The position numbers and the translations under genes were made by a program. A DNA stretch of 34,898 nt from Selenomonadaceae bacterium (lineage in GTDB: Bacteria; Bacillota; Negativicutes; Selenomonadales; Selenomonadaceae). How positions within the stretch are numbered: position 1 is the first letter of the stretch; the number at the start of each line of letters is the position of its first letter. This document shows positions 1-34,898 of the stretch, one piece after another. The stretch is from contig JAFZIV010000059.1 in the NCBI GenBank assembly GCA_017554235.1, positions 1 through 34,898 of the forward strand, written 5' to 3'. The notes under the pieces were generated by a model, which saw only the letters and a program-made list of their open reading frames with translations, did not search any database and was not told where the DNA came from.

Positions 1-134
1 TAATATCCTTTCGGTAGATTGATTAGATTGAAATGGAATGTCAAAGATGGAACGCCGTGTGCGGTGAAAGTCGCAAGCACGGTGTGGAGTGGGGGAAAAC
101 TTGGCGATTACTTCAAAGAGTTACCTATCACTAT
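1..134 (+). mobile_element. 3' end of a group II intron (domains V-VI) inside topB
   Basis: Bases about 50-86 form a domain V-like hairpin: CGCCGTG and CACGGTG arms around a GTGAAAG/TCGCAAG core, as in bacterial group II introns. It is followed by the usual GTGGAGTGGGGGAAAA-type linker and a domain VI-like segment ending CCTATCACTAT at 134. Downstream the reading frame at once resumes a topoisomerase III sequence (GQLLVDEVLD), so 134/135 is the likely 3' splice junction, splitting a GAA (Glu) codon as G|AA. Bases 1-49 probably belong to domain IV or the tail of the intron-encoded reverse transcriptase region, but I see no coding there. The rest of the intron and any reverse transcriptase lie outside the window. 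Orientation matches the host gene, as needed for splicing. Confidence 0.8.
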
Positions 135-30602: not shown

Positions 30603-31289
30603 TTATCTTTTTAAAGCAGGGTCTGATACATTATTAGCGGCAAAGGCGGCGGCTCTATCTCGACAGGTCGCACACTTCCCGCAAGGAACTTCTCCACGCT
30701 CGTAACAGCTCCATGTCAATTCATACGGTGCATTAAGTTCAAGACCGGTTTTTACAACGTCCGCCTTTGTCATTCCGAGAAACGGCGCGACGATTTTTAT
30801 TTTGCCGTAAGTTCCAATGTTGATAGCGTCATTCATAGAACGAATAAAATTTTCACTGCAATCAGCATAAGCGTTTACGGCACTGTCGTCTTGATGAACA
30901 CCTATAAAAATTTCTGCGTCACTGCCGTTAAAAATTCCGTCTGTAAAACTTGCCGCCATTGACAGCATTAAACCGTTGCGAAAAGGTACGTAGGTATCGA
31001 CACGAGGATTTTTTTTAACCTGTTCACCGTAAGTTGTCGGCTCAAGATTTTTCGTCGAAGTATTCATTAACGCCGAATCAGAATAGCGCATAACCTGCGC
31101 GGCATCAAATTCATAATGTTTCACGCCGTAATATGCGGCAATTTTTTTTGCGCAGGACAATTCTTTTTCGTGACGTTGACCGTAAAAAATCGAAACAGCT
31201 ACAACATTTTCACGCCCAAATTTTTTTATCGCAATGGCAAGACAAGTCGTTGAATCAAGCCCGCCGCTTAAAAGTACTGTTGCTTTCAT
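30603..31289 (-). CDS. queC: 7-cyano-7-deazaguanine (preQ0) synthase
   Basis: ATP-dependent formation of preQ0 from 7-carboxy-7-deazaguanine, for queuosine tRNA modification. A 228-residue PP-loop enzyme: LLSGGLDSTTCLAIA near the start, FYGQRHEKEL, VPFRNGLMLSMAASF, IFIGVHQDDSAVNAYADC and the zinc site SCYERGEVPCGKCATC. The ATG directly abuts the stop of the zinc-ribbon gene upstream, so they are cotranscribed. The ribosome site GGCGGCGA lies within that gene's end. No queD, queE or queF is seen here. Confidence 0.97.
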   Translation of the reverse strand: MKATVLLSGGLDSTTCLAIAIKKFGRENVVAVSIFYGQRHEKELSCAKKIAAYYGVKHYEFDAAQVMRYSDSALMNTSTKNLEPTTYGEQVKKNPRVDTYVPFRNGLMLSMAASFTDGIFNGSDAEIFIGVHQDDSAVNAYADCSENFIRSMNDAINIGTYGKIKIVAPFLGMTKADVVKTGLELNAPYELTWSCYERGEVPCGKCATCRDRAAAFAANNVSDPALKR

Positions 31290-31736
31290 TCAAAATCGCC
31301 GCCCAAAAAATTTATTCTTAATTCGCGGAACAATTATCAAAACTATTATGCCGACAGCTAAAACTGCAAAGAAAAGCGGCAATGCTACGAAAAATACAAA
31401 TGCCAACAATAAAAGAAAAATTACTCCGGCAATGATTCTGGAAAGAATATTTCCGCTGAAAATTCCGTTTATAAATTTAATTAAAAGATTGGAAAAAATA
31501 TTTGTTCCGCCGAAATTTACGAAGGTACTTTGCCCGTAAGAATTATGCTCCGAATCTGAATGGCGGTCTTTATAATTTTTCCCGTCAGAATCAACGTCAA
31601 TAGTCACGCCGCCATTATAAAAATTTTTTTCTGCTTTGCTCATCTCGCGGACAGTATCTTCCTCAATGTTATCAAATCCGCAAAAATTACAACGCGTAGA
31701 ATTACCAAGCTCTTTGCCGCACCGTCGACATTTCAT
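31290..31736 (-). CDS. Zinc-ribbon membrane protein
   Basis: About 148 residues. An N-terminal zinc ribbon (MKCRRCGKELGNSTRCNFCGFD, two CxxC pairs, quoted in part) is followed by a polar segment. One Gly/Asn-rich amphipathic stretch then leads to two close hydrophobic helices (about 103-142) and a basic end (RIKNKFFGRRF). It is probably an inner-membrane protein with its ribbon in the cytoplasm. ATG at 31736 or GTG at 31739 could start it; neither has a strong ribosome site, and the GC-rich hairpin region lies directly upstream. It is cotranscribed with queC. I do not assign a function. Confidence 0.72.
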   Translation of the reverse strand: MKCRRCGKELGNSTRCNFCGFDNIEEDTVREMSKAEKNFYNGGVTIDVDSDGKNYKDRHSDSEHNSYGQSTFVNFGGTNIFSNLLIKFINGIFSGNILSRIIAGVIFLLLLAFVFFVALPLFFAVLAVGIIVLIIVPRIKNKFFGRRF

Positions 31737-31743
31737 CACATAT

Positions 31744-31786
31744 GCGCGGCGGATACCCCCTTTTAGCTGTGGGGAGGAAGCCGCGC
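31744..31786 (-). repeat. Long GC-rich imperfect hairpin
   Basis: GCGCGGC (31744-31750) pairs with GCCGCGC (31780-31786), and inside it CCCC (31757-31760) pairs with GGGG (31771-31774). On the minus strand the inner part reads TTCCTCCCC...GGGGGTATCC. This resembles the hairpin ends of IS200/IS605-type elements as I remember them, but no transposase is present. It is just upstream of the zinc-ribbon start and could also affect its translation. Confidence 0.5.
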
Positions 31787-31821
31787 TCCACCACCTTTAA
31801 AAATTTTTTCGCCTGAAGGCG

Positions 31822-31865
31822 AGCGGGCTTAATAGCTGCTAACATAAAGCAGCCCCCCGCCCGCT
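31822..31865 (-). other. Two-stage hairpin downstream of the structured RNA
   Basis: AGCGGGC (31822-31828) pairs with GCCCGCT (31859-31865), enclosing GCTGCT (31835-31840) and AGCAGC (31848-31853). On the minus strand it directly follows the candidate RNA. A small CGCC-TTCA-GGCG hairpin and AAAAAATTTTT come next. Together they may form the 3' end of the RNA, though there is no classical terminator. Confidence 0.5.
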
Positions 31866-32101
31866 AGGGTAGTAATCCTTCGCCAATGTTATCCCACAGT
31901 TTTTGTCTACAGCACTGCCCTTACCCCTCAGGACTGTTTAACCATAAACCGCAGAGCGGCAGATTAGGATTAACGTCCGCCGGTGCCTATATATTTGCGG
32001 GTAACGTAGTTTAAAACTGAGGCTAGTCAATCAGGGCTGGAAAAGCCACCGCATTTATGCGTGGGGTTATTGACCGGAATACACCTCCAAATTTTTTTGG
32101 C
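31866..32101 (-). ncRNA. Highly structured non-coding RNA, possibly raiA-motif-like
   Basis: This GC-rich island in an AT-rich genome has no coding potential on either strand and lies just downstream of a minus-strand promoter. Several helices are visible. ATTGAC (32069-32074) pairs with GTCAAT (32026-32031), closing a CGCA/TGCG hairpin. CCTCAG (31926-31931) pairs with CTGAGG (32017-32022), and TTACCC (31921-31926) with GGGTAA (31999-32004), in pseudoknot order. GGCAGA (31958-31963) pairs with TCCGCC (31976-31981). That last stem has an A-C mismatch on the plus strand but a G-U pair on the minus strand, supporting the minus strand as RNA. Size (~220-240) and complexity recall the raiA motif; that name is a guess from memory. 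It is not RNase P, tmRNA or SRP by their signature sequences. The 3' end is uncertain. Confidence 0.6.
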
Positions 32102-32107
32102 AAGTTA

Positions 32108-32136
32108 ATTTTATCATATAAATTTATTTGTCACAA
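32108..32136 (-). promoter_or_regulatory. Minus-strand promoter of the structured RNA
   Basis: Minus strand TTGTGA (32136-32131), a 17-base spacer and TAAAAT (32113-32108) preceded by TGA (extended -10). The predicted transcription start is near 32101, at the edge of the GC-rich structured region. Confidence 0.72.
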
Positions 32137-32180
32137 TCAAAATTTTTAAATAAATTCAAGGATATTCGCCGCGCAGTTTC

Positions 32181-32209
32181 TTGACAAACAAAACACTAAT
32201 GCATAAAAT
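32181..32209 (+). promoter_or_regulatory. Promoter for typA
   Basis: Perfect TTGACA (32181-32186), a 17-base spacer and TAAAAT (32204-32209). It gives a leader of roughly 70 bases before typA and is divergent from the RNA promoter. Confidence 0.82.
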
Positions 32210-32284
32210 TTCTTTACCACATCTAATTTGACTTAATGAAGAGAAATTTTTTTTTGTCAATAATCGAAAAGAAGGGAATTTATT

Positions 32285-34102
32285 ATGAAGAATGAAGGAA
32301 TTAGAAATTTAGCAATCATCGCGCACGTAGATCACGGCAAAACGTCTTTGGTTGACGTACTTTTGAAACAGGCGCGTGTTTTTCGTGAAAATGAACAAGT
32401 CGCCGAACGCGTTATGGATTCAAATGATTTGGAACGCGAACGCGGCATTACAATTCTTTCAAAGAATACCGCAATTTTTTATAACGGCGTCAAAATTAAT
32501 ATCATTGACACGCCCGGACATAGCGATTTTTCCGGCGAAGTCGAGCGCGTTTTAAATATGGCGGACGGCGTTTTACTTCTGGTTGACGCTTTTGAAGGCG
32601 TTATGTCACAAACTCGTTATGTCTTGCGTAAAGCTCTCGAACATAAATTAAAGCCCATTGTCGTAATAAATAAAATTGACCGTCCCGACGCGCGAATTGA
32701 TGAAGTAAACGACGAAATTTTAGAATTGTTTATGGAACTCGGCGCAGATGATGAACAGCTTGACTTCCCCGTAATTTACACGTCCGCTAAACTCGGCATT
32801 GCTAAAAAATCTATCGATAACGATTCAAAAGATTTAAAGCCGTTGCTGGATACAATTTTATCTGAAATTCCCGCGCCTGAAGGCGAAGTTGACGCGCCTT
32901 TACAAATGGTTGTCACTACGCTTGAGGCTAACGACTACGTTGGAAAATTGGCTATCGGCAGGATTCATCGCGGAAAAATTAAATATGGTTCAACCGTCGC
33001 AATTATCAGCGAACACGAAACGAAAAAGGCTAAAGTCGGAAAAGTTTTTACTTATGACGGATTAAACCGCGTTGAAGTTGATGAAGCGTCGATGGGTGAA
33101 ATTGTTGCATTGACAGGGCTTGGAGATATTTCAATCGGTGATACTATTGCTGACGCTGACAATCCTGAAGCGTTGCCTGCAATTCGCGTTGACGAGCCGA
33201 CTTTAAGCGTAACTTTCGGCGTCAATACCAGTCCTTTTGCCGGTAAGGAAGGGCAATTCGTTACAAGCCGCCATATTCGCGACAGACTTTTTAAAGAGGC
33301 TCAAACTAATGTTGCGTTGCGCGTTGAGGAAACGGATTCTGCGGACGTGTTCAAAGTCAGCGGACGCGGTGAACTTCATCTTTCAATTTTGATTGAGACA
33401 ATGCGCCGCGAAGGTTACGAAATGCAAATCGGCAAGCCTGAAGTTGTTTACAAAATTGTTGACGGTAAAAAACTTGAACCTATTGAAAATTTAACCGTCG
33501 AAGTCCCGCAAGAATTTATGGGAACTGTTATGGAACTTCTCGGCAGAAGAAAAGCTGAAATGAAAGATATGTCCGAAGTTGCGGGATATATGCGCATAAA
33601 CTTTTTAATTCCTGCGCGTGGGCTGATTGGTTTTCGTTCGGAACTTTTGACCAGTACGAAGGGCAATGGAATTATGCACCATTTCTTTCACAGTTACGCG
33701 CCTTACAAGGGCGACATTACCGGCAGAAATCGCGGCAGTCTTGTAGCTTTTGAGGAAGGCACAACAACCGGCTACGGAATTTTTAATTTGCAGGATCGCG
33801 GCATAATGTTCATTGAGCCTAATCAAAAAGTTTATGAAGGTATGATTGTCGGCGAAAATTCTCGTGAAGTTGACATTGATATAAATCCCTGCAAACAAAA
33901 ACACGTTACCAATATGCGTTCCTCCGCGTCCGATGAGGCAATTCGTCTTGTCCCGCCAAAAATTTTGAGCTTGGAGCAAGCCCTCGAATATATTAACGAT
34001 GATGAACTTGTTGAAGTCACTCCGCAAAGTATTCGCTTAAGAAAAGCTGTCCTCGATCGTACAACTAGGGGACGCGCCGCTAAAAATGCAAGAAAATCCT
34101 AA
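32285..34102 (+). CDS. typA: Ribosome-associated GTPase TypA/BipA
   Basis: A 605-residue translational GTPase related to EF-G and LepA that helps 50S assembly and stress or cold adaptation. G motifs: [10 protein letters not shown] (G1), RGITI (G2), DTPGHSDF (G3), NKIDRPDA (G4) and TSAK (G5). It has EF-Tu-like domain 2, the [20 protein letters not shown] domain III segment, and the TypA-specific C-terminus ([33 protein letters not shown]). The ATG follows GAAGGGAA. It is monocistronic with a consensus promoter. The 140-base gap after it is AT-rich, with no clear terminator. Confidence 0.97.
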
Positions 34103-34242
34103 AAATTTTTTTGGAAAGCTCTTGAAAAAGTTTAGATTTTAGGATATTTTTTCGATTAAATAATGTGGTTAAAAATTTCCTAATGTTTTTGATTTTTGTT
34201 TTTTAAGTGCAAAGATGTTTTTTGAGAAAGGGGAAATGTTTT

Positions 34243-34898
34243 ATGGCGAATATAAATTCAACCATTAAAGATGGCAAGGTAGAAGGTACCGACAATGCCG
34301 ATTATATTGTTGCAAAGCATCCGGGTAATACGGTTTACGCTTACAATGGAAATGATACTATAGATGTCACCTCGAGTAATAATAAAATTGCAGGTGGCTC
34401 AGGCAATGATTTTATAATGATTCAGAGTTGGGCAGAAAATAATAAATTGGATAACTCAGATTACTGGAGTAATACTGACAGCAGGCGGCACTACGGTTTA
34501 GATGGCAACGATACAATCATCAACGCAGGAAACAACAGCTATTTAGTTGATAGTGTTGGCAGTAATTATTTTGTGAGCGGCGGAACGGGCAACACGATAC
34601 AAGGCAATGCTGACGGCGTTGATAATTTCTTCATTTACTCTTACGAAGATACTTCCAACATTACGATTAAAAGTAGTGCAAATACCGGAGATAATTTTAC
34701 AATCGCCACTGGCTACACCGAAGTTGAAGCAGATGAATTTCTTGACGCAACTCGTAAATCTTCGACTAATGAAACAATCAATGTAACAATTACAGATTTT
34801 GATTCAATAGATGCCTTGACAGTTATAAACAGCGGAATGACTGCCCTCAATCACAGCATTAACTCCAATGGCACTTACCTTTACGATAACACGGGACA
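34243..34898 (+). CDS. RTX-like repeat protein, N-terminal part (runs off the window)
   Basis: An open frame from ATG 34243 to the window end (218 residues, no stop). AAAGGGGAA lies upstream at workable spacing. There is no signal peptide. It opens like the protein at 9553 (short polar start, then VEGTDNADYI) and carries degenerate Gly/Asn/Asp repeats: AYNGNDTIDV, AGGSGNDFIMI, GLDGNDTIINAG, VSGGTGNTIQGNADG. They are less regular than true GGxGxDxxx RTX nonapeptides and rich in Asn and Thr. It is probably a second secreted or surface repeat protein. A weak promoter (TTGAAA at 34122, TATTTT at 34145) may drive it, leaving a ~90-base leader. Whether it has the same C-terminal module cannot be seen. 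Confidence 0.78.
   Translation, partial: MANINSTIKDGKVEGTDNADYIVAKHPGNTVYAYNGNDTIDVTSSNNKIAGGSGNDFIMIQSWAENNKLDNSDYWSNTDSRRHYGLDGNDTIINAGNNSYLVDSVGSNYFVSGGTGNTIQGNADGVDNFFIYSYEDTSNITIKSSANTGDNFTIATGYTEVEADEFLDATRKSSTNETINVTITDFDSIDALTVINSGMTALNHSINSNGTYLYDNTG

Follow-up and report, generated by a model that had tools for sequence, protein, structure and literature searches.

Here, we identified a mobile element of 338 nt that belongs to the IscB/HEARO group, lacks an open reading frame (ORF) and lies between the Shine-Dalgarno (SD) sequence of a zinc-ribbon gene upstream of queC and the ATG of that gene. In our preferred reading, to which we assign a probability of about 0.6, the right end of this element supplies a substitute ribosome-binding site for the gene that it has separated from its own. 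The element occupies positions 32074-31737 on the minus strand of the window (the whole analysed stretch of 34,898 nucleotides from a Selenomonadaceae bacterium) and is without a nuclease gene.

A covariance-model scan of the whole window against Rfam (4227 families, gathering scores) returned a full-length HEARO match (RF02033) on the minus strand at 32074-31869, with 122.4 bits (cut-off 83), an E value of 4.6e-25 and model positions 1-211 of 211 covered. It was the sole match above threshold in this region and delimits the omega-RNA scaffold. HEARO is the omega-RNA (guide RNA) of the RNA-guided nucleases IscB and IsrB, and IscB is Cas9-like. The earlier note on this DNA had read a deeply conserved complex non-coding RNA from the minus strand, which is borne out by this non-coding, full-length match of ~210 nt; the RNA is real, but its lower limit had been drawn too early, since the feature runs 129 nt further, to 31737. 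The raiA guess of that note gave way to HEARO: neither raiA nor OLE, 6S or ROOL produced a gathering-score match in the window or any match up to E 10 in 31700-32300, where a permissive scan returned three sub-threshold matches besides HEARO. The covariance-model search that the note had suggested thus supported a structured RNA and spoke against these four families, which were ruled out together with a new RNA class; the RNA is a known one, and what is less expected is the position and the ends of the element that carries it. It is the covariance model that marks the RNA as non-random, the plain folding energy of the 338-nt element by itself being weak evidence (z -1.59, with 6 of 100 shuffles as good). 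The one other Rfam match in the window is a group II intron domain V/VI (RF00029, 60.4 bits) at its left edge (50-134, plus strand).

A pseudoknot that joins an internal loop to the 3' end is a feature of HEARO, and in the window RNA it is probably formed by AATCC (31967-31971) and GGATT (31874-31878), both on the minus strand. With a fixed pattern, the two halves were readable in 42 of 47 copies from the genus and in 0 of 29 from the phylum. Among the readable genus copies, 36 have AATCC/GGATT, four the fully compensated TGCTC/GGGCA, one TATCC/GGATG and one a pairing of four of the five positions; all five are paired in 41/42, and in five copies both sides have changed with pairing kept. Segments in pseudoknot order had been noticed before, which agrees with this plausible and compensated pairing, although it is not assured that the same segments were meant.

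The element is located exactly between the native SD GGAGGTG (32082-32088, minus strand) and ATGA, the start of the gene that precedes queC, with no added duplication, and the order in the window is promoter, GGAGGTG, TATTCCG, element and then ATGAAATG. TATTCCG (32075-32081, minus strand), which abuts the left end of the element, is the native 7-nt spacer between SD and start. The host gene (31290-31736, minus strand; 149 codons) encodes a protein of 148 aa with a zinc ribbon and a hydrophobic stretch by eye and no Pfam or NCBIfam match; its ATG (31736-31734) directly follows the element, whereas the ORF list starts it at a GTG at 31739. Directly downstream is queC (30603-31289, minus strand; TIGR00364, 181 bits; PF06508), and the divergent upstream neighbour is typA (32285-34102, plus strand; TIGR01394, 946.6 bits). 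Also on the plus strand, an ORF that leaves the window (34207-34896) has weak RTX-type calcium-binding repeats (22.3 bits, just below the Pfam cut-off of 23).

Comparison with element-free relatives clarified which signals are native. The zinc-ribbon gene is present in 54 of 66 genomes of the genus, own included, and the element was found in the 90 nt before it in none of the 29 relatives fetched out of the 53 with the gene. In the five nearest, which share 63-71% protein identity, a run resembling an SD (GGAAGTG in four of them and GGAAAGTGGTGG in G060) stands at normal spacing to a start that is ATG in all but G011, where it is GTG. All five keep the promoter, as TTGTGA or a near match, 17 nt and TAAAAT. 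In the window, the -35 hexamer TTGTGA (32131-32136) and the -10 hexamer TAAAAT (32108-32113) are likewise separated by 17 nt on the minus strand. Because the element-free relatives keep this promoter before the zinc-ribbon gene, it belongs to that gene; the hexamers reported in the earlier note do exist, but a promoter of the RNA's own was ruled out. In the same way, GGAGGTG, taken there as the 5' part of the RNA, is the native SD of the zinc-ribbon gene, outside the element and split from its ATG by it. On sequence grounds, the RNA is placed in the leader of this gene, under the predicted promoter of this gene. A location wholly inside the leader, together with strong structure, might suggest a domesticated 5'-leader regulator of the zinc-ribbon and queC genes; we regard this as very improbable, given the element-free leaders of the 29 relatives fetched, of 53 with the gene, and the presence of similar elements before unrelated genes.

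The right limit of the element was set from its copies. In a 24-copy alignment, many ORF-less copies have in common ~130 nt past the Rfam model that end at NTGA, and the window element is therefore given as 338 nt, its boundaries being placed by empty-site comparison. This right-end segment (31737-31868, minus strand), the remainder of the mobile element, contains an SD-like AAAGGTGGTGGA (31787-31798) and immediately after it a hairpin (31744-31786) with arms GCGCGGC (31786-31780) and GCCGCGC (31750-31744) around a 29-nt loop, supported by compensatory changes among copies. The comparison of right ends shows a 7-nt spacer, ATATGTG (31737-31743), from this 7-bp stem to the start codon at the junction. 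The nearest copy to the window element, L003, is 92.6% identical. The RNA is followed on the minus strand by a frame of 47 codons, by the zinc-ribbon gene and by queC, and no iscB or isrB stands directly after it. The 47-codon ORF (31845-31702) was considered as a shortened IscB peptide and ruled out, its frame not being kept among copies as judged by eye.

The genome itself (2.27 Mb, 65 contigs, ~94% complete) contains 24 HEARO matches, 19 of them above the cut-off, and some of these relatives carry iscB. RRXRR/IscB sequences were found at five places, none beside the window RNA; the copy on contig C58 is an IscB with RRXRR and HNH parts (NF040563, 365.6 bits; PF14239, PF01844), and open IscB frames of 432 codons are present at C58 and C13. 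With respect to IS200/IS605-type criteria, precise insertion, empty sites and no target duplication were observed at the window and L003 sites. The L003 gene occurs in 53/66 genus genomes, and all 29 relatives fetched out of 52 read ..GGAGG..ATGAG without an insert. At the hfq site (L018; gene in 54/66 genomes, 29 of 53 relatives fetched, 15 compared), the element was present within 60 nt in 0/15. This copy (G000:C4:48742-48955) is the exception to the criteria above: a near-identical native SD segment flanks it on both sides, and its junction is ATGG, unlike other copies. Since no match to the Y1 (TnpA) transposase PF01797 was obtained in this ~94% complete genome, current mobility is unproved.

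Several other copies of the same genome deserve mention. At L002 (G000:C50:59603-59809) part of the RsmE-like gene downstream recurs in the left flank, which gives the impression of a gene start duplicated around the element, and L010 (G000:C58:84435-84712) lies directly after a CRISPR-repeat-like sequence (ending GTGGATTGAAAC) and before a GTG start. L015 and L028 represent a second HEARO/IscB type, whose right end differs in having a AATTAAGG junction without NTGA. L024 (G000:C65:16972-17228) has a HEARO match of 66 bits followed by an ORF whose start, by eye, is like TnpB/OrfB and not IscB, and it is possibly a chimera of the two guide systems.

We then asked how often these elements lie at gene starts. 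By eye, a right end was assigned to 30 elements, 13 of this genome and 17 of relatives. Their junctions are NTGA in 29/30 and ATGG in one, which is partly by construction, as ends were placed at NTGA-type motifs; the ATGA of the window copy is fixed by the empty-site comparison. A junction was counted as a start if its codon opened at least 80 codons and an in-frame stop lay within 30 codons upstream. This held for 12 of 13 here and 9 of 15 in relatives (two more are at contig edges), against a background of 27/507 ATGA/GTGA sites in the window and 6/46 intergenic ones (5-13%). At the 6/46 rate, the binomial tail is 3e-10 for 12/13 and 3e-5 for 9/15; when the upper 95% limit of that rate is used, the values are 1e-6 and 0.006. 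The fairer count takes only ends recognised by the standard hairpin, as five junctions (L009, L018, L022, L041 and L047) had been set at the gene's ATG. Counted in this way, 10/10 own copies precede a plausible start in sense orientation and 6/11 in relatives, one of the six (L043) having by eye a better start further on. L054 and L039, which have no standard hairpin, and L033 and L050, which are at contig edges, are also outside these counts. Seven of the ten own standard ends have 7/7 stem pairs; L004 and L008 have a 5-bp stem, and in L006 the hairpin is 9 nt from the junction. In L009 and L041 a stem of 7 bp lies 7 nt ahead of the ATG, and L018, L047 and L054 are without a hairpin.

Eleven of the 24 own HEARO matches had no right end assigned. 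In L005, L011 and L019 iscB follows (the end of L005 is described below as L026); L012 is internally deleted, L016 and L021 are near contig ends, and the end of L023 is cut by the contig; the ends of L014 (by tRNAs) and L020 are lost, L015 is of the second type, and L024 precedes the TnpB-like ORF. In relatives, 23 of 35 HEARO matches were read, 17 with a right end and six (L031, L035, L038, L044, L045 and L048) without.

These placements bear on a plainer explanation, a transposon relic in which an ORF-less HEARO landed by chance, the SD-like run and the hairpin are transposition or IscB-coding signals, and the gene is silenced or weak. Right-end hairpins are expected of IS200/IS605-type ends, and the same right end is found in copies with no start after them (L032, L049, L037, L051 and L056); of the 11 standard-ended copies of relatives, five are off starts by the rule. 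The SD-like run occurs also in copies inside genes, and because of this it is a property of the element; in autonomous, iscB-carrying copies it encodes the C-terminus of IscB, so that coding or transposition, and not translation, may be the reason for its retention. The 10/10 own standard-ended copies before plausible starts argue against chance landing when set against the 6/46 intergenic sites, as do the SDs found 5-12 nt before the ATG in the three hairpin-less copies and the presence of hfq, murG-like and vorB-like genes (named by eye from their N-termini) among those displaced. We therefore consider a plain relic unlikely. The placement at starts itself could reflect target choice or the survival of harmless insertions, and the present sequences would fit either.

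The preferred reading, a substitute ribosome-binding site at the right end, draws on the architecture shared by the copies. Read towards the gene, the right end consists of a purine run (AAAGGAGGG or AAAGGTGGTGGA), a stem immediately after it, usually 7 nt, and the junction; the stem varies across copies as GCGCGGC/GCCGCGC, GTGCGGT/ACCGCAC, GTCGC/GCGAC and GGCTGAG/TTCGGCT, with compensatory changes. Pairing of the right ends with the anti-SD has a mean of -10.5 kcal/mol, compared with -6.7 for shuffles (lowest of 200: -7.6; n=30). The native SDs in the left flanks of the 22 start-site copies have a mean of -5.9 kcal/mol; shuffles give -3.5 (the lowest of 300 being -4.9) and a control segment -3.0. 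Eight of the 22 (L002, L004, L009, L010, L017, L022, L040 and L043) are weaker than -4 kcal/mol. In the window copy, the hairpin loop contains a further SD-like run, 17 nt from the ATG, which pairs with the anti-SD more strongly than AAAGGTGGTGGA does. On this evidence, the right end could re-supply translation to the displaced gene.

The copies that carry iscB join the element to the following gene more closely. L026 (G000:C58) has the same left and right ends as the ORF-less copies and an SD-like GGCGGTG in its left flank; its iscB stop takes TG from the element and its last base, A, from the ATG of the following gene, which gives a TGATG overlap, and that gene begins MKKFLKFLKFLSAQKGQTLV. 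L044 (G055:C47) lies directly before a ruvA-like ATG, and its iscB frame runs into the ruvA-like gene. L031 has no start codon after the element. A broader interpretation, which we hold tentatively and at somewhat less than even odds, is that, in this lineage, IscB/HEARO elements are constructed so as to land on starts (NTGA as ATG or GTG), with a portable ribosome-binding site that doubles as the end of iscB, TGATG coupling, host mRNA and omega-RNA in one molecule, and the old SD as guide.

For the window copy, the mechanism that we favour would begin at the native promoter, which would produce one RNA consisting of the old 5' leader (the first ~27-30 nt, a guide length), the omega-RNA and the zinc-ribbon gene. 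The SD-like purine run, a hairpin that is looped out, 7 nt and the ATG would then act as the substitute site, and the element could occupy the gap between SD and start without silencing the gene. A role of such guides in element retention is an existing idea. A resident IscB might here use the RNA as guide against the element-free site, NTGA lying beside the guide match, which would favour retention of the element; the guide of the window copy fits that site and is consistent with such a role. The window copy may still guide IscB. In OgeuIscB, ~17 nt of guide pair (PMC9640706), and with the guide position given there the native SD would fall inside the guide segment and TATTCCG would provide the guide-proximal bases if the RNA guides. 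The target-adjacent motif (TAM) of IsrB is NTGA (PMC9581776), which fits the NTGA at the right junction.

A terminator-like hairpin (31822-31809) precedes the zinc-ribbon gene; like the lack of a Y1 transposase match and of a second guide target in this genome, it counts against current activity. The hairpin would suit a stand-alone guide acting in trans, in which an omega-RNA is transcribed from the native promoter as far as this hairpin and guides an IscB encoded elsewhere, with incidental downstream effects. The full-length scaffold would allow this, as would the -10 hexamer ending 33 nt before it, which leaves a 5' segment of about guide length, and the 432-codon IscB frames mentioned above. 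On the other hand, the tail after the hairpin has A's before its T run, as in a weak terminator; an end at 31809 would cut off the zinc-ribbon and queC genes unless another promoter serves them; and no second target of the 18-nt guide with NTGA was found within 3 mismatches in this genome. As the sole account we find this rather improbable, even more so than a plain relic, yet it is compatible with the substitute ribosome-binding site for part of the transcripts.

The distribution of these elements is patchy. In the genus, HEARO was found in 13 of the 60 genomes searched and RRXRR in five at E<=0.001, or four above the cut-off (this genome counted in each case); in the phylum, HEARO is present in 36 of 348 genomes, this one included. 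From the phylum, 29 loci and 20 further regions were read; an IscB-like start directly downstream was recognised in 22/29 by either of two patterns and in 8/20 by one pattern. Outside the genus, the right-end pattern is about two-fold enriched (12 in 39,519 bases vs 18 in 131,628 bases of control DNA), and right ends of a similar kind were seen by eye in L092, L093, L098, L110 and L191. L098, which is without iscB, is placed before a GTG that by eye resembles an ssb start and probably is one; in the genus of its genome, HEARO was found in 1/6 genomes, so that no replicate of this placement was available there. Across the sequences searched, the start-codon habit is seen for this genus only.

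HEARO reportedly prefers to insert before ATGA/GTGA, as Weinberg et al. are said to have described in 2009, and ORF-less HEARO are known. The window copy resembles HEARO/IscB omega-RNAs in its full-length match, its pseudoknot and its insertion before such a site; it differs in having no HNH/IscB ORF, in lying in the leader of another gene and in that its guide would be the SD region of that gene. Compared with IscB/IsrB OMEGA loci (ISC, IS200/IS605 superfamily), it shares its ends with the iscB-carrying L026 of the same genome, and it differs as a miniature element of ~340 nt with no coding region in a genome where no Y1 transposase was found. We describe it as a variant of a known family and not as a new kind. 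Hairpins between SD and AUG that shorten the effective spacing are known from phage T4 genes, whereas the hairpin here is the end of a mobile element that has spread to many genes. Like the pneumococcal BOX, RUP and SPRITE repeats, the element is short, structured, non-autonomous and present in many copies; in contrast to them, it is placed at start codons and brings an SD-like run with it. PMC3049150 describes SPRITE as enriched elsewhere and as seeming likely to interfere with transcription when they lie upstream of genes, and the ORFs made by BOX as being without good SD candidates. The literature searched, at the level of titles and abstract beginnings and with the two founding papers outside this scope, contained no description of start-codon placement or end architecture of HEARO/IscB elements, and the phrase 'start codon' is absent from the main text of PMC9755519 and PMC9581776.

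A possible new RNA class is now replaced by a precise identification. As the empty sites in relatives show, the narrow gap between the SD and the start codon of genes is open to a mobile element whose guide RNA serves a Cas9-ancestor nuclease. If the right end of the element re-supplies translation, this would explain how such elements reach two dozen copies in a genome of small size and leave its genes functional, and the mRNA leader of the host gene would itself become a guide RNA.
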